NCBI RefSeq assembly: GCF_003425985.1
Contig: NZ_CP022985.1
Span: 2,145,501-2,209,500 of the forward strand
Source: Mariniflexile sp. TRM1-10
GTDB lineage: Bacteria; Bacteroidota; Bacteroidia; Flavobacteriales; Flavobacteriaceae
Direction: 5' to 3'
Length of the DNA: 64,000 bases
Positions 22,582 to 40,682 of the stretch are shown here, one piece after another. Each line of letters starts with the position of its first letter. Position 1 is the first letter of the stretch. The notes beneath the pieces were generated by a model. The model saw nothing but the letters and a program-made list of their open reading frames with translations. It ran no database searches and was not told the DNA's origin. The position numbers and the translations under genes were made by a program.

Positions 22582-22626
22582 TTTTAGTGTTTTAGTTTAT
22601 TGATAGTTTTCGTTGTTTATTATAAA

Positions 22627-22640: not shown

Positions 22641-22648
22641 TCTTTGTT

Positions 22649-22656
22649 CAAAAATA
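22649..22656 (-). promoter_or_regulatory. -7 promoter box of nirK
   Basis: Minus-strand TATTTTTG matches TAnnTTTG, about 68 bases before the ATG. No -33 TTG is visible at the proper spacing, as expected for an activator-dependent promoter. Confidence 0.55.
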
Positions 22657-22671
22657 CGTGTAGAATTTGTT

Positions 22672-22699
22672 TGAGAATATGATATTTGTCAGATTCTCA
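22672..22699 (-). promoter_or_regulatory. CRP/FNR-like activator box of nirK inside a larger inverted repeat
   Basis: TATGAT-N4-GTCAGA (22678-22693) is nested in TGAGAAT-N14-ATTCTCA; both are centred at 22685.5. The centre is 29.5 bases upstream of the first base of the -7 box, the same as in the nos promoter, which places it near -41. Confidence 0.6.
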
Positions 22700-22776
22700 T
22701 AAATTTACGGAATTCGAATTTAATAGTTGAAATTTAACTATTATAAACTTACAAGATAGGCGAGATAGATTTTATT

Positions 22777-22812
22777 ACCAAATTATTGTAGTACAAAAGA
22801 TAGGTTTATATA
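22777..22812 (-). repeat. left copy of the direct repeat framing the accessory island
   Basis: About 36 bases match the 3' end of the TonB receptor gene at 29452-29488, with a 21-base exact core (22792-22812), one single-base gap and one three-base mismatch. Read on the minus strand it encodes YINLSFVLQ-stop, against YINLSFVWQ-stop in the receptor. It looks like a leftover or duplicated receptor 3' end. Confidence 0.65.
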
Positions 22813-23384
22813 CCTCCGCTATCGCGAGCATCTCGCTCGTGACGGCATGAGTGTCAGGTGATTGACGATTGACAATTTAGAATTCAGAATTCAGAATTAT
22901 GGATTCAGAATGTGGAATTGAGAGCACAAATCTTGAAGCAAGAACAGAACCCGAGAGGTTAAAAGATGTTTTAAAACGATGACAAGATACCTTTTACGAT
23001 TTCTGATTAACGATTGACGATTAACGATTAACGATTGACGATTCCCCTTTCACGATTAACGATTGACGATTGACAATTCCCCTTTCTCTAGACCTATCCC
23101 CAATCTAAAAATCTAAAAATCTAAAAAGTCTAACATTCTAAGAAGTCTAACAATCAGAACCCGAGAGGTTAAAAGATGTTTTAAAACGATGACAAGATGC
23201 TATTCCCGAATCTTTTCACGATTTCTGATTAACGATTGACGATTGACGATTCACGATTCCCCTTTCACGTTTCACGATTTGGACCTCCCTGATTATAGTT
23301 AACCGATTCACCAAAACCCAGAACCCAACACCCAAAACCTTGAACCTTGAACCGAAGAGGACACACCTGCCCAAAAATAGAGGG
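22813..23384. repeat. non-coding stretch of short and medium repeats at the island edge
   Basis: Contains a hairpin (GCGAG-cat-CTCGC), many heptad-like copies of ACGATTG/ACGATTA, runs of AATCTAAAA, and CCCAAAACCTTGAACC-type low complexity. A 44-base sequence occurs twice exactly (22945-22988 and 23155-23198). No coding potential and no CRISPR-like regular spacing. Confidence 0.75.
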
Positions 23385-23610
23385 GTTTTGTTCGAGTTTT
23401 GTTCGGGTTTTGTTCAGCTATGGTTCGGGGGTCTATTTTTTGGATGGGGGTTTGTCCGAACAAAGGGTGAACGAAACTAAACTAAGACGGCTGTCATGCC
23501 TACTTTACATTTTTAAAATATTCTTGTAAGTGGATTTTTATTATATTCGTAAACCTATAAACGATATAACTACAATGGGGATGGTGTTTGTTGTGGTTAT
23601 ACGATTGTTG
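23385..23610. repeat. long direct repeat, copy 1
   Basis: About 226 bases that recur at roughly 90 percent identity at 25439-25686. The left part has tandem GTTTTGTTCGAG / GTTTTGTTCGGG units and an opposed CCGAACAAAGG. The right part ends in the ATAACTACAA...TTGTGGTTAT hairpin that precedes each of three accessory genes. Confidence 0.85.
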
Positions 23611-23615
23611 TGTGT
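23566..23615 (+). repeat. attC-like hairpin and 5' boundary of accessory gene 1
   Basis: ATAACTACAA (23566-23575) pairs with TTGTGGTTAT (23591-23600) at 9 of 10 positions. TTGTTGTGTGT (23605-23615) is then repeated in inverted form after the gene (24342-24352). This is the arrangement of an integron-type cassette boundary, although the core is not the classic GTTRRRY. Confidence 0.5.
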
Positions 23616-23635
23616 CACCTTGAGTAGAGTGCAAA

Positions 23636-24334
23636 ATGATAAGTAAATCAGAAAACAAGATAATCCATATAACAGAAGAGTTTAACACATTAAAACTCAT
23701 TCTTTCCAGTAATTCGCTAAAATTATCATTTTGTAGTGAGGACTTTTACTATGATAATAAAGCAGCCTCAAAGGCAGCTCATCCTATGATTTCATTTTCA
23801 GAATATAACATTTCAACAATTGATAATGAAAGAATAACATATGGAAAATATGGCATTGGTTTTTCGAAGGATTGGGCAAAAAACAATAATGTTGGTCCAG
23901 TTTTATATGTTGGAACGACTTCTGTAGCAGCAAAAGGAATGAACATTTTACTTAAAGCAAGGCGAAAAACGAATAACGAAAAACTACCTGGAAAAATTCG
24001 ACTTGCAATAATGGAGGTGAAGACTTTCATGAAAAATGAAAAAGGGTATAACAGCAAATTTAAAGAAGAGAATTTTGACTTTAAGGCAGAAAACGAATGG
24101 AGATTTGTGCCAAGAAAATCGGATATTGATAATTATTTGATTTCACAGAATCAAAGGACCTATTTGAAAAACAGAGACAAGCATAATAAAATGCTGGAAA
24201 AATATCCACTTAGATTTAAACGAGAGGATATTCAAATTCTTTTTGTTTCGAATGCATCCGAAAAAGACGAACTAATAAATACTTTTGGATTAGATGTTGA
24301 AATAATTAAAATATCCAATTGGAGGATAAAATAA
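23636..24334 (+). CDS. AbiGi-like abortive-infection antitoxin family protein
   Basis: 232 residues, no signal or TM. The segment MISFSEYNISTID, then TYGKYGIGFSKDWAKNNNVGPVLY, then FKAENEWRFVPRK matches what I know of the AbiGi family (putative antitoxin of an abortive phage-resistance pair), including the ENEWR motif. In AbiG a toxic partner is normally adjacent; the next gene (24498) is unrelated to any toxin I recognise. The gene sits alone within inverted repeats. The assignment is from memory of the family pattern. Confidence 0.55.
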   Translation: MISKSENKIIHITEEFNTLKLILSSNSLKLSFCSEDFYYDNKAASKAAHPMISFSEYNISTIDNERITYGKYGIGFSKDWAKNNNVGPVLYVGTTSVAAKGMNILLKARRKTNNEKLPGKIRLAIMEVKTFMKNEKGYNSKFKEENFDFKAENEWRFVPRKSDIDNYLISQNQRTYLKNRDKHNKMLEKYPLRFKREDIQILFVSNASEKDELINTFGLDVEIIKISNWRIK

Positions 24335-24341
24335 AAGGCGA

Positions 24342-24476
24342 ACACACAACAATATGTATATTGCATAAGGGGTTCACTGGTTTTCGAGCGTTTTCGCTCG
24401 CATTAATTTATGGAGGTAAATTGATAGGTTTGAGCTCCGCAATCCCTTACGCAACATACATTTAACGTTGGCACCA
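24342..24476 (+). repeat. attC-like hairpin between accessory genes 1 and 2
   Basis: Arms TGTATATTGCATAAGGG (24355-24371) and CCCTTACGCAACATACA (24444-24460) pair over 17 bases with two wobble pairs. An inner hairpin is GAGCG-ttttc-GCTC. The left end ACACACAACAA closes gene 1, and the right end GTTGGCACCA opens gene 2. Confidence 0.6.
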
Positions 24477-24497
24477 ATTTAAAAAAAAACGAACTTA

Positions 24498-25367
24498 ATG
24501 AGTTTTGATTTAAACTTTTACAAAAAAGGAAATAATGAAGTAAGTATTTCAGAAATGGTTGAATTCTTAAATACTATTCCAATGTTGGAAAGTAAAAGCG
24601 AAGACCAAATAGTTTATGAAAATGAAACTACAGGAGTTTTTTGCTTATTTGAAACTTATGAATCAGAAGAAAGTGAAGTCGAAGATGAAAATGACTTTGA
24701 AGATTTAGAAGATACTAATTTATGTTTTAATATAAATTATGTTAGACCAGACTTTTTCGGAATTGAAAGTTTTGAATTAGTAGATAAGTTAATAGAAAAG
24801 TTTGACCTTTATGTTCTTGACCCACAAGCAGAAGCAGTACCAATAAAATATAAAAAAGGAGAATTATTAAAAAGCTGGTTAAAATCAAATGAAAAAATCA
24901 GTAAATCTTATTTTAAAGAATGGGAACTAAATTATTTAGAATTAGAGAAATCCAATTATTGTTGGGAATTCTGCTACAATAAAAACGAACTTCAAGAAAA
25001 ATTAACAGAAGAATACTTTGTCCCAAATATTTTCTACCTAAATAAAAATGGAACTGAAAACGTAGAAACTTTATGTGTTTGGCCTGAACATATTCCGTTT
25101 GTTTTACCAAAAGTAGATTTTGTTTTAATTCAAAAAAGAATCAAAAAATTATTTAGAACAAAAGAAGAAAGTGGTTTAGTAAAATATGAAACAATTATTG
25201 AGAAATTAGGAGAATATTTTGAAAACGAAAATGATTATAAAATTATTCATCCAAAAAATGAAGAAAAAATAAAACCGATTTTTAACTCACTTGAAATTTT
25301 TACAACAATAGAAAAATATGGAAAAGGAATTTCAGTAGATAAAATAGTGAATTATAAAAACGAATAA
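24498..25367 (+). CDS. unknown acidic cytoplasmic protein (accessory gene 2)
   Basis: 289 residues, no signal peptide or TM segment, strongly acidic in the N-terminal third (ESEESEVEDENDFEDLED). I do not recognise a family. The start MSFDLNFYKKG resembles small immunity-type proteins, a weak resemblance. It is bounded by GTTGGCACCA (24467-24476) and TGGTGCCAAC (25373-25382), a perfect 10-bp inverted repeat, so it looks like a self-contained cassette. Confidence 0.65.
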   Translation: MSFDLNFYKKGNNEVSISEMVEFLNTIPMLESKSEDQIVYENETTGVFCLFETYESEESEVEDENDFEDLEDTNLCFNINYVRPDFFGIESFELVDKLIEKFDLYVLDPQAEAVPIKYKKGELLKSWLKSNEKISKSYFKEWELNYLELEKSNYCWEFCYNKNELQEKLTEEYFVPNIFYLNKNGTENVETLCVWPEHIPFVLPKVDFVLIQKRIKKLFRTKEESGLVKYETIIEKLGEYFENENDYKIIHPKNEEKIKPIFNSLEIFTTIEKYGKGISVDKIVNYKNE

Positions 25368-25372
25368 AAAAC

Positions 25373-25694
25373 TGGTGCCAACAATGGCACTGCTTTTTGG
25401 TAAACTTCAAATACTTTTTAACGTTATAAGCAACAGCGGTTTTGTTCGAGTTTTGTTCGGGTTTTGTTCGAGTTTTGTTCGGGTTTTGTTCAGCTATGGT
25501 TCGGGGGTCTATTTTTTGGATGGGGGTTTGCCTGAACAAAGGGCGAACGAAACTAAACCAGGACTGCTGTCATGCCTACTTTACATTTTAAAATGTTTTT
25601 TGTAGGTGGTTTTTTATTATATTCGTAAACCTATAAAAGATATAACTACAATGGGGATGGTGTTTGTTGTGGTTATACAATTGTTACCACACAT
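25373..25694 (+). repeat. boundary between accessory genes 2 and 3
   Basis: Starts with TGGTGCCAAC closing gene 2, contains long-repeat copy 2, and ends in the ATAACTACAA...TTGTGGTTAT hairpin followed by TTGTTACCACACAT. That last motif recurs inverted after gene 3 (26275-26288, one mismatch) and after gene 4 (26553-26564, 12 bp perfect). Confidence 0.5.
25439..25686. repeat. long direct repeat, copy 2
   Basis: Close copy of 23385-23610, with about 21 extra bases from an added GTTTTGTTCGAG/GTTTTGTTCGGG unit. Together the copies frame 23611-25438, i.e. accessory genes 1 and 2. Confidence 0.85.
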
Positions 25695-25706
25695 TTGAAC
25701 TCACTC

Positions 25707-26228
25707 ATGCTAATAAACATAAATAGAAAAAGACATAAGACTTTAAAACTGTTGTCTGACAGCTTTATAAAATTCAATAGTGACCAAACTGATTCTAATT
25801 TTGTGTTCGGAGTGAGTTTTAGTGACTTACAATCTGAATTAAAATGCGACCGAAATAAATTAGAACTTATTATTGGAACTTTATATCTAAATGAAGAGGT
25901 TAAATATACCAATGTTGATATAGAGGGTTTAATCTCTACACTAAAAGGTTTTAATTCATTTTCGGATAAAAAATATTTAAAAGAGAATGATAAAATCATA
26001 ATAAATTGGTTAAAAAACTTTGTTCAAATAGTTATTCCTGTTTTAGCTTTAGTAATTGCTTATGTTTCACTTACATCAAAATTGGACAATCTAAAAACGC
26101 TATCCGATAAAGAATTACAAGAAGTAAAAAACACAATGGAAAAACAAAAAGAGCGTATAGAATTGTTGGAAAAAAGAACTGAAATTCTTCCCAATCATAA
26201 AAAAAACGACTCTTTAAAAATTGAATAA
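25707..26228 (+). CDS. unknown protein with C-terminal TM and coiled coil (accessory gene 3)
   Basis: 173 residues from the ATG at 25707 (a TTG at 25695 is also in frame but falls in the boundary repeat). A soluble N-terminal domain of about 110 residues is followed by one TM segment (WLKNFVQIVIPVLALVIAYV). A charged coiled coil then ends the protein (KELQEVKNTMEKQKERIELL). No known family. It may work with the small membrane gene that follows. Confidence 0.6.
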   Translation: MLININRKRHKTLKLLSDSFIKFNSDQTDSNFVFGVSFSDLQSELKCDRNKLELIIGTLYLNEEVKYTNVDIEGLISTLKGFNSFSDKKYLKENDKIIINWLKNFVQIVIPVLALVIAYVSLTSKLDNLKTLSDKELQEVKNTMEKQKERIELLEKRTEILPNHKKNDSLKIE

Positions 26229-26274
26229 ATTTTGACATAGTATTTGATTTAAAAATTAATAATCTGATTAAAAA

Positions 26275-26289
26275 ATGTGTGCTAACAAT
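26275..26289 (+). repeat. internal cassette-like boundary between accessory genes 3 and 4
   Basis: ATGTGTGCTAACAAT is the inverted form of the boundary before gene 3 with one mismatch, yet no large hairpin follows. It may be a degenerate or deleted site, leaving genes 3 and 4 fused into one unit. Confidence 0.45.
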
Positions 26290-26309
26290 CAATAACTCAA
26301 TAAAACCTT

Positions 26310-26546
26310 ATGGAAAATATTAAAAATGTTAATGACATTGAACTAAACGAATTTGAGAAATACAGCAAATACAAAAAGCTTTCGGAATTACGAGCAATGG
26401 ACGAAAAAGAATTGTTGATTTTAAACAATCTAAACCAATTCCGACTTTTAAAAACACAGAATATCTCGAAAAACATTTTTATATTCTTTTTAGTTGTTGC
26501 GATTTTGTCTATTCTATTGCAAATTGTAGTTGCTTTTATAATCTAA
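26310..26546 (+). CDS. small C-terminally anchored membrane protein (accessory gene 4)
   Basis: 78 residues: a charged helical N-terminus (NVNDIELNEFEKYSKYKKL), then one TM segment at the extreme C-terminus (IFIFFLVVAILSILLQIVVA). No known family. It shares an outer inverted repeat with gene 3, so the two may travel together. Confidence 0.55.
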   Translation: MENIKNVNDIELNEFEKYSKYKKLSELRAMDEKELLILNNLNQFRLLKTQNISKNIFIFFLVVAILSILLQIVVAFII

Positions 26547-26552
26547 AAAAAC

Positions 26553-26689
26553 GTGTGGTAACAACGTATATAATTTAGTGCTAGTTCTAGCTTGCTTACG
26601 AAAATCCTCGAGGATTTTCTATTCAGTTTGCACTTGTTAAATTCATTGCTTTACCACGCACCAAAGCATATACAAACCGTTGGCAGTAA
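26553..26689 (+). repeat. attC-like hairpin between accessory genes 4 and 5
   Basis: GTGTGGTAACAA closes genes 3-4 and GTTGGCAGTAA opens gene 5. Inside, CGTATAT pairs with GCATATAC near the outer ends, and a perfect 20-base palindrome GAAAATCCTCGAGGATTTTC (26600-26619) marks the middle. Overall size about 135 bases, within the known attC range. Confidence 0.55.
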
Positions 26690-26696
26690 TTAGAGA

Positions 26697-27545
26697 ATGG
26701 ACGAGAAATTAGGAATATTAACACAGAATGTTGCAAATACAGCATTACAAGTTACACCGATATTAAGTGTTCCCAATCCACCTTCTGCAATTCCATTAGG
26801 TTGTGGAATCTTTCTGAAAATAAATGATGATAGATATTTGATAAGTGCTGGACATTTATTGAATTTAGAAGATTGGCCAAATTTAATAGTTCCTGGAGCT
26901 AACAAAAAAATGGTGTGGCTAAATGGAATAGTTATAACATCATACAAAGATTCAAAAACCAACAATCCAATAGACTTTGGCATTTTAAAATTTTCTGCAC
27001 GACAGAACAAAAATTTTATTGGAGGAAATTTAGGGTTTTGTAATCCATCTGACATTATAGTTAACCATAAAGTTCAAAAAGGTGGATATTATGTAATTGC
27101 AGGATATCCAGTTTCTGGAGTAAAAAAAACAAGTGGAAAAGCGGAATTCAAACCTATTCCAGTTAAGTTTTTGACTTACCCAATAGAAACTGACAAATAC
27201 GAAAAGTACGGATTTAATCCTGACCATTTTATTTTAGTAAAATATCAAAGAAAAGTTGCACCCTTTGGCTCTAATGAAAAACAAATCACAAAGGAATTGA
27301 GAGGAATTAGTGGAAGCGGACTCTGGTATGTGCCCAATTGGAATGATAGAAAAAAGGGAGTGCCAAAATTTTATTTAGTTGGAATTATGGTAGAGAATTA
27401 TAAAGACAAAGGATTTGTTGCAGCATTAAGAATTGATTTTGCGACCGAAGTAATTAAACAGTTTTTTATCTATTCACCGTTTGAACACACTAAATTTGAC
27501 TTCGGAGATAACGTTAAGAATTTATATGGTTCGGAAATAAAATAA
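26697..27545 (+). CDS. trypsin-like serine peptidase (accessory gene 5)
   Basis: 282 residues without a signal peptide, so probably cytoplasmic. The chymotrypsin-fold triad is visible: His53 in LISAGHLL, Asp93 in NPIDFGIL, and Ser205 in RGISGSGLW. The spacing is normal for S1-like folds. Stand-alone cytoplasmic trypsin-like proteins of this kind occur in defence and other accessory gene sets, where they may cleave a partner. No partner is obvious here. It is bounded by TTGGCAGTA (26681-26689) and TACTACCAA (27547-27555), 8 of 9 complementary. Confidence 0.7.
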   Translation: MDEKLGILTQNVANTALQVTPILSVPNPPSAIPLGCGIFLKINDDRYLISAGHLLNLEDWPNLIVPGANKKMVWLNGIVITSYKDSKTNNPIDFGILKFSARQNKNFIGGNLGFCNPSDIIVNHKVQKGGYYVIAGYPVSGVKKTSGKAEFKPIPVKFLTYPIETDKYEKYGFNPDHFILVKYQRKVAPFGSNEKQITKELRGISGSGLWYVPNWNDRKKGVPKFYLVGIMVENYKDKGFVAALRIDFATEVIKQFFIYSPFEHTKFDFGDNVKNLYGSEIK

Positions 27546-27546
27546 C

Positions 27547-27751
27547 TACTACCAATAACTAGCGTTCGTGTGGTCGGTACGACCCAACATGAACGCCCTG
27601 TTGACTGAACCGGTTCTTAGCCCGTTAGAACAGCTCTTGAAGTCAGTGACTTCGTAGCAATATTAAAGAAAAAGTAATATATTGCGTATATAAAGAATAT
27701 AACTACAATAGTGCTACTGTTTGTTGTGGTTATACAATTGTTAGGCACAAG
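27547..27751 (+). repeat. boundary between accessory genes 5 and 6 with canonical core
   Basis: Begins with TACTACCAA and ends with a third copy of the ATAACTACAA...TTGTGGTTAT hairpin (27699-27733). TTGTTAGGCACAA follows, where GTTAGGC (27740-27746) fits the integron core GTTRRRY exactly. Confidence 0.5.
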
Positions 27752-27759
27752 TAAAAAAT

Positions 27760-28536
27760 ATGGAATTCGATTTAAATAGAAATGCATCCAATTTTATAAA
27801 TGAATCTCTTCATTGTGCAAGAAGAGCATCTAAAGAAAGTGATAAGTATCCAATTGCAATTGTCCTATTAATACAAGGTCTAGAATTGACTTTGAAATTT
27901 CTTTTATCAAAAGAAAATGAAATGCTTGTTTATGACAATGTTGATAACCCTAATATTAATAAGACAGTTGGTATATCTGCAGCTTTAAATAGACTAGTAA
28001 GTTTTAAAGTTATCGATTTAGAACCTTCAGATAAATTAAGACTAGAGAAAACTATTAAAATTCGCAATCAAATAACCCATTTTCAATTTAATCTAAACCC
28101 AAAGCAAGCGCATAGTTATTACTTAAGACTATTTGAGTTTATTCACTATTTCTATTCAAAATACCTTAGCAAAGACCTTCATGACATAATTCAAAAAGAA
28201 TATTGGGCGTTTGAAGCAGAACTTTTAAGTGAAATAAAAAAGTCAGAATATGTTCACTACCATGGAATTACGGTACATAAAAATCACCCTAAAGACATTA
28301 TTGAATCTCAACAATATGACGGTTTAGAAATAGACAATGAAATATTTGATAGAATCCCATTCGGTAGTGAAACAACTTTCAAAATTGGAAATAGTGACCT
28401 ATGTGGCGATTGTGGGGTTATTAAAGGATTTTATCACACTGACAATTGTGATCATGAACAATGCCCGAAATGTGGGGAACAATTAATTGGATTTCATAAA
28501 TGTGAACATACAGCTTATGTTACTATAGAAAAATAA
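27760..28536 (+). CDS. HEPN-like protein with C-terminal zinc ribbon (accessory gene 6)
   Basis: 258 residues. The N-terminal 150 residues are helical and HEPN-like, with the RNase signature R-x4-H at Arg102-His107 (IRNQITHF). The C-terminal 60 residues hold two cysteine pairs, DLCGDCG and EQCPKCG, with further Cys/His residues (HTDNCDHE, HKCEHT) consistent with one or two zinc ribbons. HEPN proteins are often toxic RNases in abortive defence. No MNT-type antitoxin is adjacent. The catalytic motif is seen; activity is inferred. Confidence 0.6.
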   Translation: MEFDLNRNASNFINESLHCARRASKESDKYPIAIVLLIQGLELTLKFLLSKENEMLVYDNVDNPNINKTVGISAALNRLVSFKVIDLEPSDKLRLEKTIKIRNQITHFQFNLNPKQAHSYYLRLFEFIHYFYSKYLSKDLHDIIQKEYWAFEAELLSEIKKSEYVHYHGITVHKNHPKDIIESQQYDGLEIDNEIFDRIPFGSETTFKIGNSDLCGDCGVIKGFYHTDNCDHEQCPKCGEQLIGFHKCEHTAYVTIEK

Positions 28537-28538
28537 AA

Positions 28539-28960
28539 CCTGTGCAACACCGTTCTAAATGTTAGCAAATATTAAAACCAAACTATTAAAAAGATTTTTT
28601 TTGAAGTCCCTCTTTATAAGAAAATAACCATTCACGAAACCGAAGATGAAACGACCATGACCAAAACTTTGTACACCCAAGGAAATGATTATAGGCGTTC
28701 CATGTGTCCTTTGAAAAACAAATAAATATAAACACATGAAAAGTTAGATAGAGTTGTTGATTTTTACTTATAATTCCCAACCTTATAAGTTGCCTAAAAC
28801 AACCTATAGCAGCGATTTTAAACTAAAGGAAACCACCACTTTGAGTGCGTCTATGCAGTTGTTTTATAAGGCTAAAATAAAATTCCCTTTAAAAACATTC
28901 CTATTGCAGCTAGAAACATATAAAAAGGTTAAATAATTTAACAATTAACTTCTTCTGGTA
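28539..28960. pseudogene. island right flank: degenerate boundary and decayed coding relics
   Basis: CCTGTGCAACA (28539-28549) resembles the closing boundary of gene 6 but no full hairpin follows. Beyond it, 28600-28720 on the plus strand reads KKITIHETEDETTMTKTLYT, then MCPLKNK-stop without a start. A second frame at about 28754-28936 reads LPKTTYSSDFKLKETTTLS, ending QLETYKKVK-stop. These look like pieces of one or two broken genes that I do not recognise. Confidence 0.4.
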
Positions 28961-29374
28961 TTATTTATTGAGCAGTTTTTCCAAATACTCAATTTTATCC
29001 TGTTCAGATTTTAAAAGACGTTCGTAGAGTTTTTTGTTTTCTTCGTGCGCTTCTAATAGTTTATCGAGAGGATTAAATGTGCAATGGTGATTTATTGTAG
29101 GTCCAGCATGGATTACGGAACCATCATAATTATTCTGAATATTGTTAAATACAGCTTCATCACTATAATTTTCGATTGCTTCCTTTGTAACCCCAAGCAC
29201 CTTTGCAATCTGTTCCAGTTTACCATCCTCAATGGTTTCAGATTGCTCAATTTTGGACACAGCTTGTTGGCTGATGCCCAGTTCTTCGGCTAGTGTTTCC
29301 TGTTTCATGCCTCTTAGCTCCCTGATACGGCTAATCTTTCTGCCTATGTGGTTTGGTTTTGTTGCTGTTTCCAT
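28961..29374 (-). CDS. XRE-family (Cro/C1) HTH regulator
   Basis: 137 residues. The helix-turn-helix lies at about 10-65 (IGRKISRIRELRGMKQETLA, SQQAVSKIEQ). The middle is a short linker and the C-terminus a coiled coil (KKLYERLLKSEQDKIEYLEK), probably for oligomerisation. It is at the right edge of the accessory island, opposite in direction to the cassette genes. Its target is unknown. Confidence 0.88.
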   Translation of the reverse strand: METATKPNHIGRKISRIRELRGMKQETLAEELGISQQAVSKIEQSETIEDGKLEQIAKVLGVTKEAIENYSDEAVFNNIQNNYDGSVIHAGPTINHHCTFNPLDKLLEAHEENKKLYERLLKSEQDKIEYLEKLLNK

Positions 29375-29451
29375 GAACCAAATATAAGATTTTTTGTGAA
29401 ATTTACCACACTTGTAAAAAACAAATTCGATTTGGTTTTATACAACCTCTA

Positions 29452-29488
29452 ACCAATATTATTGCCATACAAAAGATAGGTTTATATA
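29452..29488 (-). repeat. right copy of the direct repeat framing the accessory island
   Basis: 3' end of the TonB receptor gene, matching 22777-22812 (exact core 29468-29488). If this is an integration target, the gene keeps an intact coding end here. Confidence 0.65.
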
Positions 29489-31462: not shown

Positions 31463-31475
31463 TGGCAAAACTTTG

Positions 31476-31653: not shown

Positions 31654-31673
31654 TATTAAATGTTTGTTTAAGC

Positions 31674-32519: not shown

Positions 32520-32832
32520 CTGTTAATATTTAGCCCCCTAACCCCAAGCCTCCCCAACCCCTCCGAAGGAGGGACTTAACAAAGGTTACTCATATTGGTT
32601 TTAAGGGTTTTGTTTGTTATTTTAATTCTGGTTAATTGTTAATCCTTAACCCGTGGTTAGACTCTTAACTCATAACTCTTAACTCATAACTCCTTCAGTT
32701 ATGGACATTTCATCTGTATTGTTTTTTAAATTTCGCGTAGCATGACAAACCACACATTTTTTTGTAATGCATAATACCGCATGCTCGCTTAGGTTATAAG
32801 CCAGAAAAGGGTCATTAATAAGCTGTAAAAAA
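32520..32832. other. intergenic stretch with repeats and a possible CxxCH fragment
   Basis: Includes a hairpin CCCTCC-gaa-GGAGGG (about 32558-32573) and tandem TCTTAACTCATAAC units (32660-32690). On the minus strand an open frame (32679 to about 32820) contains CITKKCVVCHATRN, which has a heme-type CVVCH motif, but it lacks a separate start and overlaps the gene upstream in another frame. I cannot support it as a gene. Confidence 0.35.
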
Positions 32833-33228: not shown

Positions 33229-33232
33229 GGGT

Positions 33233-33240
33233 CAAATTTA
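33233..33240 (-). promoter_or_regulatory. -7 box before the small Cys protein gene
   Basis: Minus-strand TAAATTTG, four bases before the ATG at 33228. It suggests a separate leaderless promoter inside the nos cluster. Confidence 0.45.
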
Positions 33241-33278
33241 CTGAACTCTTTTAAACTTAATATGATATTTTGAAATAA

Positions 33279-34061
33279 TTAAAAATCCTTCTTTTTTGCC
33301 TTAAAAATGATGCTTAAAACGGGTAAAATCACCCAAAGGGATAGGGCTGTAAATGAAACAATTAACCCGAAACTAGTTCCGAAAAATTGTTTAAAAATAG
33401 CGCCTGTATATCCCAATAATGCCGAGATATCAAGTTTTAAAAGAATGAGTGTTCTCGATAAATCTATTGGATTTAGCATCGTTCCTATTAATGACATTTT
33501 ATCTAATGGATACGCTTCAAATAATATTAATGACATTAAAAAGATGCCATCGTAAATAATGCCCAAAAACAACCATAGCAGAATGGCATATCCAAAGCCT
33601 TTAATTTTGTTTTCATTAGATAAGGCAATATTAAACGCCAATGCTGTAAATATTAAGGTTAAAAAAGTGCCAGTGATAAGCAATAATGAAAAATCCCAAA
33701 TGGCATGGCTTTTAAATAATCCGTAAAAAATAAATGGCAATCCTAAGCCTAAAATTAAACTCATAGACAAAGACAAGGCAACACCTAGATATTGACCTAA
33801 AAATATGGAAGAGCGTTTTATGGGTTGTGCTAAAAGAAGCTCGGTAAATTCTTTGGAATTGTAATAATACATAACACCAAAAATGGTTCCGATTAGTGGT
33901 ACTAATATGATGATCACATTCATTAAAGTAATGACCGCTTTAGATAAATCATTGTTTAAAAAAAGGAGGACAATCCCAAGCATTAAATAAAAAGCGAAAT
34001 ACACATAACTCCAGCGGCTTCGCATTAAATCGTAAAAACTATATTTTAATATTTTAAGCAT
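33279..34061 (-). CDS. nosY: NosY-type ABC transporter permease
   Basis: 260 residues with six TM segments and almost no loops, as in NosY. With NosF it forms the ABC transporter NosFY that works with periplasmic NosD to build the CuZ [4Cu:2S] centre of N2O reductase. The frame overlaps nosF by 8 bases. The identification rests on gene order nosL-nosD-nosF-nosY as well as topology. Confidence 0.9.
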   Translation of the reverse strand: MLKILKYSFYDLMRSRWSYVYFAFYLMLGIVLLFLNNDLSKAVITLMNVIIILVPLIGTIFGVMYYYNSKEFTELLLAQPIKRSSIFLGQYLGVALSLSMSLILGLGLPFIFYGLFKSHAIWDFSLLLITGTFLTLIFTALAFNIALSNENKIKGFGYAILLWLFLGIIYDGIFLMSLILFEAYPLDKMSLIGTMLNPIDLSRTLILLKLDISALLGYTGAIFKQFFGTSFGLIVSFTALSLWVILPVLSIIFKAKKKDF

Positions 34062-34761
34062 GGTTCTCGGTTAAAATGGATGCAATGGCATGTTCGAAAT
34101 CGGGCTGATTTGTTTTTGTTTTCAATTCTGAAATACGACCTTTAAAGTAAATTTTCCCTTCTAATAGAAATACGACTTCATCGGAAACTTCTTCAACAAA
34201 ACTCATGATGTGCGAGGTTATTAAAATGGTTTTCCCTTTAGCCTTTTCTACTTGAATTAAATCTTTTAGTCTAATAAGTGATATGGGATCGAGTCCAGAT
34301 GTGGGTTCATCCAAAATAATAAGCGGACTATCAAACATAAAGGTTAAAACCAGATTCACTTTTTGCTTGGTTCCGCCAGAAAGTGTTCCTAATTTTTTAT
34401 CTAAAAACGGATTTAGTTTGAATAAATCAATAAGACGTTCGTCGTCACTGGTTTTACCACGCAGATCCTTAATCATTTTAATAAGCTCTTTTACTTTTAA
34501 ATTGCTAGGGAAGTTGGCGATTTGTGGTAAATAATCAATGTTATAGCGGTAATCCGAATTGTTTTTTATGTTTTGACCATAAACCGATATGGTACCTTTG
34601 TTGGGAATTACCATACCTAATATAGATTTTATCAACGTGGTTTTTCCAGAGCCGTTAGGTCCAAGTACTGCAAAAATGCCCCCTTCTTTAATAGATAGAT
34701 CGACGCCACTTAGCACGGGGTTTTTTCCAAACTTTTTATGTAAATTTTGAATACTTACCAT
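34054..34761 (-). CDS. nosF: NosF ABC transporter ATPase
   Basis: 235 residues. Walker A GPNGSGKTTLIKS (about 34-46), Q-loop near 80, signature LSGGTKQKVN, Walker B LIILDEPTSGLDP and switch His in ILITSHIMSF are all present. It energises NosY for maturation of the NosZ copper cluster. It overlaps nosD by 7 bases and nosY by 8, indicating tight coupling. Confidence 0.93.
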   Translation of the reverse strand: MVSIQNLHKKFGKNPVLSGVDLSIKEGGIFAVLGPNGSGKTTLIKSILGMVIPNKGTISVYGQNIKNNSDYRYNIDYLPQIANFPSNLKVKELIKMIKDLRGKTSDDERLIDLFKLNPFLDKKLGTLSGGTKQKVNLVLTFMFDSPLIILDEPTSGLDPISLIRLKDLIQVEKAKGKTILITSHIMSFVEEVSDEVVFLLEGKIYFKGRISELKTKTNQPDFEHAIASILTENHA

Positions 34762-35990
34762 GAGATTTTTTTTGTTACAGGATTGTTGTCTAATAGATTA
34801 TCGGGTGTAAATACGGGTGATACTTTTTCGGAAAAATCTATAATATCAATAAACAAACTTCGCAATAGAATGATGGTTTCCGGTGTGCGGTTTACAATGT
34901 ATGAAAACAGCTTGACCGGCCTGTAAGGTACATCGCCAATGCCATCTTTATTCAAATCGTAACCTGTGTAGTTACTCCAATAATTTTTGTCAAAAACATT
35001 GTCGTTTATATTGCTGTTGTATGAAACATCGAAAGAATTGTACAGAAAATTATTTTCAAGAAAACTGTTGGTATAACAGGCACCACGAACCTTAATTGCC
35101 CATCCGTTATTGATGAAATCGTTGTTTTTATAAACAATTCTGTTCGAGCCTTCTATATTGATGCCTACGGTGTTTTCTTCAAAGGTATTCCCAATAATTT
35201 CAGCATCATTTATTTCTTTTAAAAGTATGCCGTATGATGCAGTACCCCAATTTTCTTTAAACGTATTGTTGAACATTTTTATCTTTTTTGAAAACATAAC
35301 CGCCACACCAGCACCATTGCTTTGGAACGTATTGCCTTGATAGGTGTCGTTATTGCTGAACATGAAATGCAACCCATAACGTAAGTTCTGTACGCTTACA
35401 TTATTCTTGATGAGGCAATCGTCTGAAAACTCTAAATAAATCCCATCGCGAACATGTTCGATATAATTATGTTCAATTTCTATATGATTACTGTACCATA
35501 ATTGGATGCCATTTCCGGAATTGTATTCCTGTACCGCATCGCCAATTATTTTGTTGTGATAAATTTTTCCGTAGCTCGATTTTTCTATATAAATACCAAA
35601 AAACAACTTTTCCAAGACGAGGTTTTTGATAACAAAATGTTTGCTTCGCTTAACACGAATTGCGGCATAATCCTCGGTATAACTAGTGCCAACATTTATA
35701 ATGAACAAGCCATCAATCGTTACATGGTCTGAAATAATGGTGAAAATTTCACCTTTTTTTTCGCCATCTATAATGGGGTGATTTTCGCCAATAATTGTGA
35801 GAGGTTTATTTACTAAAATTTTATGCGCTTTATAAGTCCCTTTTTTTACTATAATTGTATCATAATCCTTGGCTTGAGCTATGGCTTTTTTTAATGAAGT
35901 AATAGCACAAGAGTGGCATACTTCAATTTTTTGAGCATAACTGGAGTAAGCCATTAAAATGACCAGTAAAAAAATGACTGTTTTGTACAT
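34755..35990 (-). CDS. nosD: NosD periplasmic copper-cluster maturation protein
   Basis: 411 residues with a Sec signal peptide (to about SYAQ, residue 20). The body is a right-handed beta-helix of about ten pectate-lyase-like turns, with repeated Asn/Gly ladder motifs (NKIIGDAVQEYNSGNGIQLW, SDDCLIKNN, NRIVYKNNDF). NosD works with NosFY in the periplasm to assemble CuZ in NosZ. The gene starts five bases after nosL ends. Confidence 0.94.
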   Translation of the reverse strand: MYKTVIFLLVILMAYSSYAQKIEVCHSCAITSLKKAIAQAKDYDTIIVKKGTYKAHKILVNKPLTIIGENHPIIDGEKKGEIFTIISDHVTIDGLFIINVGTSYTEDYAAIRVKRSKHFVIKNLVLEKLFFGIYIEKSSYGKIYHNKIIGDAVQEYNSGNGIQLWYSNHIEIEHNYIEHVRDGIYLEFSDDCLIKNNVSVQNLRYGLHFMFSNNDTYQGNTFQSNGAGVAVMFSKKIKMFNNTFKENWGTASYGILLKEINDAEIIGNTFEENTVGINIEGSNRIVYKNNDFINNGWAIKVRGACYTNSFLENNFLYNSFDVSYNSNINDNVFDKNYWSNYTGYDLNKDGIGDVPYRPVKLFSYIVNRTPETIILLRSLFIDIIDFSEKVSPVFTPDNLLDNNPVTKKISW

Positions 35991-35994
35991 GATA

Positions 35995-36432
35995 CTAGTT
36001 TTTTAAATGTTCTAGTAGTTGGTTCCAGGAATACAGCATCCCGCCTTTTTCCGATTGGAATTTTTGTGCTTCTCCTTCAGTTTTAAAGGCCGATAAAAAC
36101 GCTCCCATAGGACTCGGAATATTTTTACTTATTAAAAAAGTAGCTTTGGTTGCGTCTATAAGAGCTTCAGGTTCTGTGTAGTTATTTGAAAGGTATAGTT
36201 CAATTTCGGCATTGTCGAATTCATTCATAAAATGAATCATACATTCGGTTGAATCAAATTTATATAGTTTGCCTTTTTTAGTAACAATTTCGGCTGCGTG
36301 AACTTTGTCTACAATGGTCATTTTACAAAAATGACAACCATCGCTACCATAGTTTATGGCTTTTGGAGATACATTACAGCCATAAAATAACAGCAATAAT
36401 GAGCCTATTAATAATTGTTTTAGTGTTTGCAT
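35995..36432 (-). CDS. nosL: NosL copper-binding lipoprotein
   Basis: 145 residues, lipobox FYGC (Cys19). The Cu(I)-binding motif GCHFCKMTI (Cys33, Cys36, Met38) is typical of NosL, which delivers copper to NosZ/NosD. A second candidate metal residue set is ECMIHFM. It is followed immediately by nosD. Confidence 0.94.
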   Translation of the reverse strand: MQTLKQLLIGSLLLLFYGCNVSPKAINYGSDGCHFCKMTIVDKVHAAEIVTKKGKLYKFDSTECMIHFMNEFDNAEIELYLSNNYTEPEALIDATKATFLISKNIPSPMGAFLSAFKTEGEAQKFQSEKGGMLYSWNQLLEHLKN

Positions 36433-36500
36433 GTCATAGTGTTTTAGTGTTTTTTGAGATTTTTTTCTACATAGCTTTTGTTTTTTTAATCGAAAAGAAT

Positions 36501-36523
36501 TCCTCGACGCTCTGCCTCGAGGA
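36501..36523. other. hairpin between the 197-aa membrane gene and nosL
   Basis: TCCTCGA and TCGAGGA pair around CGCTCTGCC. No long U-tract follows on the minus strand, so partial termination or RNA processing are both possible. Confidence 0.4.
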
Positions 36524-36532
36524 TAGTTCGTT

Positions 36533-37126
36533 TCAAGAAATTATTTTATTGGTTTTTTTCCCAACCAGATAAGCAATAAATGAGGCTGCAATACCTAACC
36601 CTAAAAACAAAGAGCCTAATCTTGGGTACGAATGTGCCGTAAAATTTAAGATGTGTTTAGTGCCAAATAAAGGCGGTTGAAAGCCCATTACCGAACCATC
36701 CGGATTGGTGAATTTCATAATCGCTTTGGGGTCTAAATCATGACCATAATCGTGCTCCCATAAATAAAAATCGTATAGTCCAGCTGTACTTAAAACGATC
36801 ATCAATATGAACCAGGACAAGAACCATTTGTAGTTGCCTTTAAATGCAATTATAAGTCCCAATATAGTCGTTATCAATATGCCCGCAGGGAAAATTTTGA
36901 ATTCAGGAATGGCATCCGGAATATATTTCATTCCCACATAGTGATTCATTAAATTGATGTTTTTAATATCAAAAGGGTTCACATCTGAAAAATCATTAAT
37001 ATGAATGTACATTCCCAAAGGAGTTGGATATTGAGGCGCTTCTAAAGTAATTTTCCAAAGTGGAAAAAGAAACAATCCTAAAGGCAATAAAGCCGCAATA
37101 AGCATTATGATGTTTGACTTTTTCAT
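36533..37126 (-). CDS. nos-cluster membrane protein
   Basis: 197 residues with about four TM segments (6-26, 80-98, 104-120, 170-188). Between the first two lies a conserved-looking extracytoplasmic loop (LGMYIHINDF, then NLMNHYVGMKYIPDAIPEFK). Another loop contains YLWEHDYGHDLDPKA with several His and Asp. I know similar proteins from clade II nos operons of Bacteroidota, with no assigned function. A role in electron transfer or copper handling is plausible. Confidence 0.7.
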   Translation of the reverse strand: MKKSNIIMLIAALLPLGLFLFPLWKITLEAPQYPTPLGMYIHINDFSDVNPFDIKNINLMNHYVGMKYIPDAIPEFKIFPAGILITTILGLIIAFKGNYKWFLSWFILMIVLSTAGLYDFYLWEHDYGHDLDPKAIMKFTNPDGSVMGFQPPLFGTKHILNFTAHSYPRLGSLFLGLGIAASFIAYLVGKKTNKIIS

Positions 37127-37423
37127 CTGTTTGTATTTAATTGTTTTAACTCGTTGGGTATAATTGCTTTATCAATACTAATTTTTATATAAATTGTCAC
37201 ATTGAGCTTGTCGAAATGTATCTTCTAGTGTCTTCGACAGGCTCAGACTGACACTTGAGTGCTAAATTGACTTATAAATTATAATCAAAATTCGTTATAA
37301 ATTAAATTTTCTTAATTTCACCCAACGGATTTGTTTTAATGTTTTAAAAGAAAGGCGAGAGCGACAATTCAACTCTCGCCTTATATGGGAAATAAACACT
37401 AAATAAAATTCCCCAATACTATA
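37127..37423. other. nosZ-downstream gap with REP-like hairpins
   Basis: 37195-37255 holds opposed copies of TGAGCTTGTCGAA and TTCGACAGGCTCA framed by TGTCACA/TGACACT, a relative of the inner part of the 19463-19621 element. A second hairpin, AAGGCGAGAG...CTCTCGCCTT (37351-37381), is a candidate terminator just after nosZ. No coding potential. Confidence 0.6.
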
Positions 37424-39382
37424 TTAGTCTCCTAAAGACCAAGATAAAGGTATACTAGATGATGCAGGAGATACGCGAACATACCCTTGCATTTCTTGAT
37501 GTAACGCAGAACAGAAATCTGTACAATAAAATGGCCATACACCCACTTGTTTTGGTTCCCAAACAAACGTTTCGGTTTGCCCTGGCATTATTAGTAATTC
37601 AGACGTATTGGCTCCTATTATGGCGATACCATGAGGAACATCATAATCTTGTTCTAAATTGGTGACATGAAAATATACTTTATCGCCTACTTTAATACCT
37701 TCAATATTATCAGGTGAAAAATGACTGCGTATCATGGTCATTTGTACATGAACTTCTTTACCATTTCTGGTCACTTTAGTGTCGGCATCACTTTTAGCAG
37801 CATAGGGATGTTTGTTTTCTGCCAGTTTATAGAGTTTTTTAGAATTGGCTTTAATTAACGATGCAGGGCAACCAGCGGCATAATGCGGTTCGCCAATAGT
37901 TGGGAAATCTAAAAGCAGTTCCATTTTATCGCCAGAGATATCATACAGCTGCGCCGATTGTGTTACTTCAGGACCCGTTGGTAAATAACGGTCTTTAGTA
38001 ATTTTATTCATGGCAAGCACATATTTGCCAAAAGGTTTTGCTGAATTTCCTCCAGGAATCATTAAATGCCCTACGGAATAGTATGTTGGTTTTCTATCAA
38101 TAACTTCCCAAGTGCCTAATTTCCATTTTACAACTTCCGAAGAAATAAAGAAAGTGGTATAGGCATTGCCTTTGCCATCAAATTCGGTATGTAATGGTCC
38201 TAATCCGGATTGTTTTACGGTACCTGCAAGTACATCTTCAAATCTTAAAATTGGAATGCCGTAAGCTTCGCCATCATGTTTTTTGTTGGCAATAGCATCA
38301 AGCATTTTGGTAAATGAATGTACTGTGAGGTCCGCTGAAAGTTTTCCGTTGCCAACAATATATTCTCCACTTGGATCTACATCACAACCATGAGGTGATT
38401 TTGGTGTTGGTAAAAAGTATATGGCACCAGGAACATCTAATGGGTTAACTGTTAAAACCTCTTTGATCATAGTAGATGTTGCAGAATGTGTTTCTTCACT
38501 ATATAAATTATGTGCATAATTAGTGGGCATTTTGGTGCCACCTCCATTATTTACATATTCTTCAATTTTTTTCCAGTTAATGGCTGCAATAAAATCTTTA
38601 TCATTTTGTGAGGCATTAACTTCTAAAAGCGAACTAGCTTCCTCGGTATTATAAGTAGTAAAGAAGAACCATCCATGAGACTTTCCACGTCCTGGGTGTG
38701 ATAGGTCATAATTAAATCCGGGCATTAATATTTGAAATTTTATAGACATTTCACCATTGTCTGGATTTACTTTAAGGAATGACAAGGCGCCTTTAAAGTT
38801 TCCTTTATAGTCTTTTATAGGCATGTCTTTTTGGGGAATAGGTACAGAAAAACGAGTTCCTGCCACCACATATTCCGTGTTTTCGGTTACAAACGAAGAA
38901 CTGTGATTTCCTGCACTGTTTGGAATTTCAATGATCTCTGTAGTTTCAAATGTTGTTAAATCTATTTTTGCAATACGAGGTGTATTGTTTGCATTAATAT
39001 ATACATACCTGCCATCTAATTCCCCTTTAGTTTGGGAAATGTCTGGATGGTGTGAATCATCCCAAGGAATAAATCCATGAGATGTATTTAACATAGGTTT
39101 GGTTTCTTCATTATAGCCATAAGCTTTTTCTGCATCTTGGGAGAAAACGGGAATAACTTTAAAAAGGCGTCCCGATGGCAAACCATAAACAGATAATTGT
39201 CCGCTAAAACCACCAGAAATAAAAGCATAAAATTCATCATGCTCCCCAGGGGCAACATATACTTTTTCGGCAGCATTTGAGCTTAATGCGCCGTTAGATT
39301 TTGAAGATTCTCCATTATTGCAACTTGTAAAAGTGAAGGCAATAATTAAAAACCCAATGGAAATATTTAATATTTTTTTCAT
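37424..39382 (-). CDS. nosZ: nitrous-oxide reductase, clade II
   Basis: 652 residues; reduces N2O to N2 in the periplasm. The signal is Sec/lipoprotein type (lipobox FTSC, Cys20) rather than twin-arginine, as expected for clade II NosZ. The beta-propeller domain carries CuZ histidine motifs (DDSHHPDI, GNHSSSFV, ETHSATSTM, SPHGCDVDP, GPLHTEFDG, GEPHYAAGC). The C-terminal cupredoxin holds the CuA site (YCTDFCSALHQEMQG). It follows cytochrome c and fasciclin genes. The only regulatory site seen upstream of these is the FNR-like box at 40667. Confidence 0.97.
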   Translation of the reverse strand: MKKILNISIGFLIIAFTFTSCNNGESSKSNGALSSNAAEKVYVAPGEHDEFYAFISGGFSGQLSVYGLPSGRLFKVIPVFSQDAEKAYGYNEETKPMLNTSHGFIPWDDSHHPDISQTKGELDGRYVYINANNTPRIAKIDLTTFETTEIIEIPNSAGNHSSSFVTENTEYVVAGTRFSVPIPQKDMPIKDYKGNFKGALSFLKVNPDNGEMSIKFQILMPGFNYDLSHPGRGKSHGWFFFTTYNTEEASSLLEVNASQNDKDFIAAINWKKIEEYVNNGGGTKMPTNYAHNLYSEETHSATSTMIKEVLTVNPLDVPGAIYFLPTPKSPHGCDVDPSGEYIVGNGKLSADLTVHSFTKMLDAIANKKHDGEAYGIPILRFEDVLAGTVKQSGLGPLHTEFDGKGNAYTTFFISSEVVKWKLGTWEVIDRKPTYYSVGHLMIPGGNSAKPFGKYVLAMNKITKDRYLPTGPEVTQSAQLYDISGDKMELLLDFPTIGEPHYAAGCPASLIKANSKKLYKLAENKHPYAAKSDADTKVTRNGKEVHVQMTMIRSHFSPDNIEGIKVGDKVYFHVTNLEQDYDVPHGIAIIGANTSELLIMPGQTETFVWEPKQVGVWPFYCTDFCSALHQEMQGYVRVSPASSSIPLSWSLGD

Positions 39383-39536
39383 ATGTAGATAATTATTTAT
39401 TTTTTAAAGGTCATATGGTATCGCTTTAATCTTCATTGGTGTTTATCTCACAAATTTTATTTTCATTGGTGTTCGATGATTATCAATTGTGTTTCCAAAT
39501 CATGGCGATTTCATAATGTTTTTTTGTTTAAAATGT

Positions 39537-40109
39537 TTAGTTTTCTGGTAAAATGACTTTGTCAACTACATGTACAATACCATTACCGGCAGATACACTA
39601 GCAATTATTTTGGCACCTCCAACAAATACATCGTCGCCAATAACTTCCACTTCTATGTTTTGATTATTGGCCTGACCTAATTTTTTGAATTTTTTAAGAA
39701 AGTCTTTTGAGTAGTTGCCCGGAGTCACATGGTTCAATAAAATATTGGCCAAAGTAGCTTTGTTCTCTGGTTTTAATAAATCTTCAACCGTTCCTGTGGG
39801 TAACGCAGCAAAAGCTTCGTTCGTAGGCGCAAAAACCATTAACGGACCTGCATTTACCAAGGCATTCTCCAATTCGGCAGCTTGAACAGCAGCCACAAGT
39901 GTTGTGTGGTCTTTGGAGCCAATGGCTATTTGCAATACGTTAGGTGTGGAACCATCATCTGCTATAAAGGCTTGTCCTTGTTTTTCAACAGTTGATGTTG
40001 TAGCGGTGTTGTTTGTGGATGTTTCTACGGAAGTTTCTTTATTATTTTTACAATTAAAAAAGAAGACAACAAGTAAAACAGTAAATAAAATGCTTAAGTT
40101 GGTTTTCAT
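39537..40109 (-). CDS. fasciclin (FAS1) domain lipoprotein in the nos operon
   Basis: 190 residues, lipobox FFNC (Cys20). One FAS1 domain at about 58-188 with both hallmark motifs (ENALVNAGPLMVFAPTNEAF and NGIVHVVDKVILP). FAS1 domains mediate adhesion or protein contacts in the envelope. Its place between the cytochrome c gene and nosZ suggests a scaffold or a role in stability of NosZ, but this is inference. The start is seven bases after the cytochrome c stop. Confidence 0.88.
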   Translation of the reverse strand: MKTNLSILFTVLLVVFFFNCKNNKETSVETSTNNTATTSTVEKQGQAFIADDGSTPNVLQIAIGSKDHTTLVAAVQAAELENALVNAGPLMVFAPTNEAFAALPTGTVEDLLKPENKATLANILLNHVTPGNYSKDFLKKFKKLGQANNQNIEVEVIGDDVFVGGAKIIASVSAGNGIVHVVDKVILPEN

Positions 40110-40116
40110 CTGAATT

Positions 40117-40614
40117 TTATTTTAATGTTCTAAAGTATTCAAGTACAGCTCTGGCTTCGGCTTCCGTAAGATTTTGGTTAGCCATAGGAGCGCCATTAAA
40201 TTCGGTTAATAAGTCTTTAGCTAAAGCGTTGTTTTGAATCATTTCTTCTGGGTTTAAAATCATATTCATAACCCATTCAGGAGTTCTGCGTTCTAAAATT
40301 CCAGTTGGGGCAGGTCCAATAAATTTTTTGTCTGCTCTGTGGCATGCTGTACACATTTTTGTATATATATCTTCACCATGAGTCGCCATTGCTTGGTCTA
40401 TTTCGGGCGCTAACTCCAGCGATTTTATAGGGCCAATACCTTTGTCGCTTAAGTCGACTCTTTTTGATGCAGGAACAGATTCTACCACAGGAGCAGTTTG
40501 TTCTGTAGGCTCTGTTTTTTCATAAGAAAAATTCTCTTTTTTCTTTTCTTTTCCACCACAACTTATAAATATGGTTATGGCGAGAAGTATTAATAATTTT
40601 GATGCTTGTCTCAT
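40117..40614 (-). CDS. lipoprotein c-type cytochrome, probable electron donor to NosZ
   Basis: 165 residues, lipobox FISC (Cys19), a Lys/Glu-rich linker, then one class I cytochrome c domain with Cys88-x2-Cys91-His92 (MCTACHRADK) and axial Met in NGAPMANQNL. It is first in the nos operon. A membrane- or outer-leaflet-anchored heme next to a lipoprotein NosZ is a sensible direct donor. It could also feed NirK. Confidence 0.93.
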   Translation of the reverse strand: MRQASKLLILLAITIFISCGGKEKKKENFSYEKTEPTEQTAPVVESVPASKRVDLSDKGIGPIKSLELAPEIDQAMATHGEDIYTKMCTACHRADKKFIGPAPTGILERRTPEWVMNMILNPEEMIQNNALAKDLLTEFNGAPMANQNLTEAEARAVLEYFRTLK

Positions 40615-40637
40615 AATATGAATTAAATTAAGTCAAG

Positions 40638-40645
40638 CAAATTTA
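40638..40645 (-). promoter_or_regulatory. -7 promoter box of the nos operon
   Basis: Minus-strand TAAATTTG matches TAnnTTTG, 23 bases before the cytochrome c ATG. The -33 region lacks TTG, consistent with activator dependence. Confidence 0.55.
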
Positions 40646-40666
40646 GGTACCTTATTAAGGAAATAA

Positions 40667-40682
40667 TATGACAAAAGTCATA
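40667..40682 (-). promoter_or_regulatory. CRP/FNR-like activator box of the nos operon
   Basis: Perfect palindrome TATGAC-AAAA-GTCATA, centre 40674.5, 29.5 bases upstream of the first base of the -7 box. This matches the nirK box (TATGAT-N4-GTCAGA) in sequence and in position. Confidence 0.65.

Follow-up and report, generated by a model that had tools for sequence, protein, structure and literature searches.

How do the genes for nitrite and nitrous oxide (N2O) reduction of a flavobacterium come under common control? The question is raised by a 64,000-nucleotide stretch of Mariniflexile sp. TRM1-10 (Flavobacteriaceae; contig NZ_CP022985.1, positions 2,145,501 to 2,209,500 of the forward strand; the whole stretch is hereafter the window), which holds both nirK, for a copper nitrite reductase, and the nos operon, for a clade II N2O reductase. 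An original prediction, made from the letters of the window, proposed that one CRP/FNR-like activator serves both promoters. Here, nirK and nos were found to share two palindromic sites, and their promoters are quite probably two-input promoters, combining low-oxygen activation by an FNR-type protein with the release of an NsrR-like Rrf2 repressor by nitric oxide (NO). The genes and the elements of the first site are as follows, in window coordinates.

21133..22581, minus strand: nirK, copper nitrite reductase (TIGR02376, 347.7 bits, over the cut-off)
22678..22693, minus strand: FNR-like box of nirK, TCTGACAAATATCATA, reading TCTGAC-AAAT-ATCATA from 22693 to 22678, centre at about -41.5
22649..22656, minus strand: -7 box of nirK, TATTTTTG, 21 nt beyond the FNR-like box
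40117..40614, minus strand: first gene of the nos operon, c-type cytochrome (PF00034)
37424..39382, minus strand: nosZ, Sec-type (clade II) N2O reductase (TIGR04246, 942.8 bits)
40667..40682, minus strand: FNR-like box of the nos operon, TATGACTTTTGTCATA, reading TATGAC-TTTT-GTCATA from 40682 to 40667, centre at about -41.5
40638..40645, minus strand: -7 box of nos, TAAATTTG, 21 nt beyond the FNR-like box

Both gene names given by the original prediction agree with the families, nirK by TIGR02376 and clade II nosZ by TIGR04246. Common to the two promoters is a TGAY-N4-RTCA core whose centre precedes a TAnnTTTG -7 box by 29.5 bases; the boxes, their sequences and their identical spacing were borne out to the base. 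The claim that neither promoter has a -33 TTG also holds, since direct reading of the two 21-nt spacers reveals none; among relatives, none of 75 nos promoters has a TTG 20-24 bases upstream of the -7 box, whereas 17 of 26 rrf2 promoters do. Activators of the CRP/FNR family working in the class II manner bind around -41.5, as at FNR promoters of Escherichia coli. In Flavobacterium psychrophilum, TAnnTTTG was mapped to -12 to -5 (PMC9723704), and this placement puts the box centre at -41.5 at both nirK and nos. The sequences thus support an assignment of the two promoters to the class II CRP/FNR type, as the original prediction had proposed, with a -41.5 box that stands at a fixed spacing, is kept in relatives and replaces the missing -33 element.

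Is the arrangement conserved? The relatives examined at nosZ were the best 80 of at least 578 confirmed close loci, flavobacterial and named, 76 of which have at least 1.5 kb of upstream DNA. With the -7 box taken as TAnnTTT[GA], the pair at the exact spacing was found before nos in 73 of these 76; it is also present at one locus with a shorter upstream region (L118), and three further loci have too little upstream DNA. The 21-nt spacer drifts to near-zero information beyond its first few bases, while the box and the spacing are kept. The columns demanded by the pattern are conserved by construction; flanking bases outside its demands are conserved as well. For nirK, 55 loci were used out of all 58 matches across 299 genomes from the family; the other three, of which G293 has two and G291 one, are fragments and were excluded. 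The pair, with the -7 box taken as TAnnTT[CT][AG], was observed at 34 of the 55 and with one mismatch at 3 more, and 34 of 42 core/-7 pairs stand at the one spacing. The -7 box reads TAnnTTCG in place of TAnnTTTG in the nirK promoters L164, L165, L170 and L189. Conservation in close relatives, a check named by the original prediction, was therefore observed at both promoters (nos 73/76, nirK 34/55). Within the 4.86-Mb genome itself, only three perfect matches to the strict composite pattern exist, at nirK, at nos and at an operon of UspA and fnr-like genes; the genome scan proposed earlier thus recovered nirK and nos, and the box that it anticipated before norB was absent. Ten of the 22 core/-7 pairs of the genome fall at one of 31 spacings (Poisson P about 2e-11), against 0 + 4 pairs overall for a reversed-pattern control.

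What does the first box control? The same promoter type was found, in its TTTG form, before ccoNO (cbb3 oxidase), hemN, pta, the UspA-fnr operon and other genes of the genome, and in a TTTA form before genes for pyruvate:ferredoxin oxidoreductase, pyruvate phosphate dikinase and UspA, and before a 2-oxoacid:acceptor oxidoreductase-like gene whose family score lies under the model cut-off. Because the box precedes such genes, the regulon appears to be an FNR-like one for low oxygen; in F. psychrophilum, cbb3 oxidase and heme synthesis are induced by oxygen limitation (PMC9723704). An activator dedicated to denitrification, with a box confined to denitrification genes and including norB as for DNR or NnrR, was rejected, since the promoter type also precedes ccoNO, hemN, pta and others and norB is without it. 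On these sequence patterns, a global FNR-type oxygen regulator is the likelier one. Of the earlier proposal of a single activator for nitrite and N2O reduction, the common box stands; its restriction to these two operons does not. Separately, ACTGATATATATCATT-like boxes, about 25 in number, are clustered in an island at genome positions 3790000-3870000 (L067-L070), where they precede UspA and other genes; for several of them a spacer of again 21 nt leads to TAnnTTTA, and a receiver-CRP fusion gene lies within the island.

Which protein would bind the first box? The genome has 13 matches to the cyclic-nucleotide-binding (cNMP, CRP/FNR-type) fold, and none of them falls within the window, in keeping with the original statement that the activator is not encoded there. 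Among these proteins, L023 and L021 resemble FNR and have conserved cysteines. L022 and L024, at genome positions 431661-432716 and 3825321-3826370, each join a response-regulator receiver to a CRP/FNR DNA-binding unit. The best candidate is L023, a six-cysteine FNR-like protein whose own UspA-fnr operon carries the same promoter. It combines a cNMP-binding fold with a Crp-type helix-turn-helix (HTH) and an FNR-like recognition helix, and it aligns with solved FNR structures, the CxxC and a later cysteine coinciding with those of FNR and the third canonical cysteine not; the NCBIfam Fnr model scores it at 94.2 bits (cut-off 228). All six cysteines are invariant in 30 of 30 loci. The gene, at genome positions 429974-430645, follows UspA in the operon that the third perfect composite match precedes. 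Three findings weigh against this assignment: the ExxIR pattern of the recognition helix is shared by three other proteins of the genome (L021, L022 and L024), the box-UspA-fnr arrangement occurs in only 7 of 30 L023 loci, this genome's included, and L023-type proteins are missing at E<=1e-30 from 11 of 56 nirK genomes. The activator might accordingly be one of the other three proteins, an alternative that we consider somewhat unlikely and yet the most substantial of those weighed here. L021 is encoded at 3.865 Mb, about 8.5 kb from norB, and has five cysteine columns, kept in 23, 26, 28, 30 and 30 of 30 loci, and L022, with receiver, cNMP-binding and HTH parts, is encoded directly upstream of the UspA-fnr operon. 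If one of these were the activator, nirK and nos may follow a signal other than that of hemN and ccoN. Against this, L021-type proteins (E<=3e-80) were found in 49 of 299 genomes and L023 in 195 (E<=1e-30, cross-matches included), the box is near-universal among the nos loci examined, unlike the L021-type distribution, and the site before ccoNO resembles those of nirK and nos.

Alignment of the nos promoters on the first box revealed a second palindrome, ARGAY-N6-RTCYT, immediately upstream of it; neither this palindrome nor the rrf2 gene of the window had been part of the original prediction. Perfect 16-mer copies occur exactly three times in the window, at the rrf2-ric gene pair, nirK and nos.

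22626..22641, minus strand: second palindrome of nirK, AGGATATTTTTATCCT, about +4 to +19, proposed Rrf2 operator
40685..40700, minus strand: second palindrome of nos, AGGACAAAAAAGTCCT, about -67 to -52 with a 2-bp gap to the FNR box, proposed Rrf2 operator
15435..15450, plus strand: second palindrome of rrf2-ric, AAGATAAATTTGTCCT, about -44 to -29, covering the -33 TTG
15467..15474, plus strand: -7 box of rrf2-ric, TATATTTG
15495..15929, plus strand: gene for an Rrf2-family regulator with Cys93, Cys100 and Cys106, proposed owner of the second palindrome
15936..16709, plus strand: ric/scdA/ytfE-type iron-centre repair gene (TIGR03652), adjoining rrf2

The evidence for the second site is positional. 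It was found in 74 of 75 nos promoters (57 perfect and 17 with one mismatch), against 14 of 1480 shuffles and 0 of 74 copies of the region further upstream (-90..-62) at the same tolerance, and its distance to the FNR box is most often 3 bp (52/74). L121 is the sole nos promoter of the 75 with an FNR box and without the second palindrome at up to one mismatch. At nirK, 29 of 55 loci have a perfect second site, against 7 of 550 shuffles; among the 29 loci that have a perfect FNR pair together with a second site at up to one mismatch, 21 sites start 15-25 bases after the first -7 base, 5 abut the FNR box as at nos, and 3 lie elsewhere. At rrf2 loci, this genome's included, the site was detected within 250 bp upstream in 28 of 30 (21 perfect and 7 with one mismatch, one of the latter lying far off), against 1 perfect site in 600 shuffles, and 18 of 26 site/-7 pairs stand at 16 nt. 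The norB gene of this genome, which lies 1.69 Mb away, encodes an NO reductase of the quinol type, to judge from the best-matching relatives of known structure, with no NCBIfam family at 1e-8; it has one perfect second site and also a one-mismatch copy 16 nt before a TAATTTTG box.

Is the Rrf2 protein at 15495-15929 the owner of this palindrome, and what does it sense? The protein has the Rrf2 fold (PF02082 and TIGR00738, both over the cut-off), and its Cys93, Cys100 and Cys106, a trio as expected for the cluster cysteines of NsrR, are present in 29 of 30 A-type Rrf2 proteins and in all 36 nos-adjacent Rrf2 proteins with a clean reading frame (of 38). Counted at E<=1e-15 with paralogues included, Rrf2 occurs in 54 of the 56 genomes with nirK (112 of the 243 without) and in 29 of the 31 with norB (137 of the 268 without); at least 12 of these 31 have an Rrf2 gene in the same orientation as norB and no more than 1.3 kb upstream of it. 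It was named NsrR-like, and not NsrR, because its operator, AARGAY-N6-RTCYTT, differs from the NsrR consensus gATGyAT-N5-ATrCATc and NCBIfam does not call it NsrR (29.4 bits for the equivalog NF008240, cut-off 182). A signal other than NO, such as iron-sulfur status as for IscR, copper or redox, is improbable to a degree close to that of the alternative activators. The NCBIfam scores would favour it, being 55.2 bits for the SUF regulator and 53.0 for IscR against 29.4 for NsrR, all under their cut-offs, and NirK and NosZ are both copper enzymes. Sensing of NO is favoured over these by the ric/ytfE neighbour and the norB and nirK targets, which are among the NsrR targets of PMC1274295, and by the statistical association of Rrf2 with nirK and norB genomes.

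That the Rrf2 protein owns the second palindrome is likely, as judged from gene context and site placement. The site could instead belong to another regulator, or at nos be an upstream activator site, which we consider unlikely, more so than a different signal. At nos it lies at about -60 and not over the promoter, and protein and site are linked by association. Ownership by Rrf2 is favoured by the near-fixed place of the site over the -33 region of the rrf2 genes themselves, and by its retention at nos promoters whether an rrf2 gene adjoins (37/37) or not (37/38); rrf2, mostly of a second subtype, is divergent from nos in 38 of 80 loci, and this genome has no nos-adjacent rrf2. G016 and G031, the two nirK genomes in which Rrf2 is missing, have no second site at nirK, a piece of evidence that is weak because 15 other nirK loci are also without it.

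Several further observations weigh against the two-input reading as a whole. The FNR pair is missing from 3 of 76 nos loci and, at up to one mismatch, from 18 of 55 nirK loci. Among the latter, the DNA directly upstream looks coding at L181, L185 and L190; of the former, L104 has a perfect second site, L115 a one-mismatch copy shortly before a TAnnTTTG box, and L106 a two-mismatch site before its rrf2 gene. A second site at up to one mismatch is missing from 17 of 55 nirK loci, and the 9 further nirK sites gained at this tolerance stand beside 119 of 550 shuffles. Within 400 bp of norB, 8 of 30 loci have a perfect second site and 7 a one-mismatch one. The loose second-site pattern (up to one mismatch) has 344 matches per strand genome-wide, against 574 for the reversed control, and is at chance level in the window (5 matches, 4.2 expected); no genome-wide count was used for this site, because that listing misses the perfect nos site found in the window. 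The position of the second site at nos, beyond the FNR box on its upstream side, is not a classic one for a repressor, and the FNR box was sought before norB of this genome and not found. PMC8510549 reports no evidence for CRP/FNR control of denitrification in metagenome-assembled genomes of Flavobacteriales, Ignavibacteria and Saprospiraceae, from searches with matrices derived from other groups of organisms. As for mere chance likeness among AT-rich promoters, which the original prediction had named as a refutation, the box alone at up to one mismatch is barely above the reversed control (115 + 122 matches against 90 + 97) and so is the composite at up to three (62 + 63 against 46 + 47), yet the concentration at one of 31 spacings in the genome, the like concentration among nirK relatives and the keeping of the box across many genera while the spacers drifted leave this explanation practically no room.

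How would the two inputs work together? At low oxygen, an FNR-type dimer on TATGAY-N4-RTCATA at -41.5 would take the place of the -33 element and activate RNA polymerase at the TAnnTTTG box in the class II manner, and the same activator would serve general low-oxygen genes (cbb3 oxidase, hemN, pta and UspA-fnr). For the second input, NO or nitrosative stress, the Rrf2 protein at 15495-15929, likely with an iron-sulfur cluster, would bind AARGAY-N6-RTCYTT and repress nirK, nos, norB and its own operon, and NO at the cluster would release it from the operator. Expression of nirK and nos would then need both inputs, an AND-like logic, whereas ric, norB and rrf2, with a -33 element kept within the operator, would respond to the second input only. 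At nos, the repressor would presumably block the FNR dimer, or the contacts of the polymerase alpha subunit upstream of it; an activating role of the second site there may also be considered. The pairing of proteins with sites, the presence of clusters, the nature of the signals and the sign of the second input are all inferred from these placements and contexts.

How does the proposed system compare with known ones? FNR class II promoters of E. coli FNR and Pseudomonas Anr likewise have a palindromic TGAY-N4-RTCA core centred at -41.5 and no -35/-33 element, have hemN and cbb3 oxidase among their targets, and are served by FNR-like proteins with conserved cysteines; unlike them, the half-site here is TATGAY where that of FNR is TTGAT, the recognition helix has Ile where FNR has Ser, and the -7 box is the TAnnTTTG of Bacteroidota. 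DNR and NnrR activators also have a CRP/FNR-family box before nirK and nos (PMC1274295); unlike theirs, the box here precedes general low-oxygen genes too and is absent before norB of the genome. The proteobacterial NsrR regulon, as described in the same source, shares the Rrf2 protein and the targets ric (dnrN/ytfE), norB and nirK, and in Neisseria and Chromobacterium violaceum nirK is under FNR or DNR plus NsrR, a pairing of sites like that seen here. It differs in its operator and in the protein, which here scores under the NsrR model cut-off, and further in that nos is a main target here and that Rrf2 comes in two subtypes, of which one is divergent from nos. On scaffolds from coastal sediment metagenomes, too, Rrf2 genes lie beside clade II nosZ, and passages of PMC6264515 give their gene neighbourhood without operator or promoter. 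Crp/Fnr control has been suggested for the clade II nosZ of Nitrosophilus labii, a distant thermophile (PMC11539149). Neither site was found described for flavobacteria in the literature searched, which covered titles and abstract openings, with most subscription journals outside its coverage.

The neighbourhood of these promoters holds further genes. In the nos operon, two features complete the annotation.

39537..40109, minus strand: fasciclin-domain gene (PF02469), between the cytochrome c gene and nosZ
34755..35990, minus strand: nosD, maturation protein (TIGR04247)

SCO1/SenC-type and EgtB-like genes at 19639-21133 lie directly downstream of nirK and are likely part of the same operon. 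Hemerythrin-domain genes, one with a PAS domain, occupy 17984-19441, with the rrf2-ric pair on one side and the nirK operon on the other. An AbiGi-like phage-defence antitoxin gene (PF10899) lies at 23636-24334 between nirK and nos, and several genes around it have no Pfam match.

What does the site pair mean for flavobacteria? Bacteria with clade II nosZ, flavobacteria included, are regarded as important sinks of N2O, a greenhouse gas. Little information is available on the regulation of clade II nosZ, above all outside Proteobacteria (PMC6264515). Flavobacterial nitrite and N2O reduction genes often share a pair of sites, probably one for low oxygen and one for NO. We see roughly even chances that flavobacteria, and perhaps Bacteroidota more widely, have a cis-code of their own, in which a global FNR-type class II box is joined to the operator of an undescribed Rrf2 NO regulon, with one subtype at ric and norB and one divergent from nos; N2O reductase would then be made only where low oxygen and NO coincide, and in this genome nos would be served by just one Rrf2 protein, the one encoded in the window. 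With a fixed, readable pair of sites and a named candidate regulator, it becomes testable whether N2O reduction by flavobacteria needs NO besides low oxygen, and the pair would provide a simple sequence test of this regulation in metagenome-assembled genomes.

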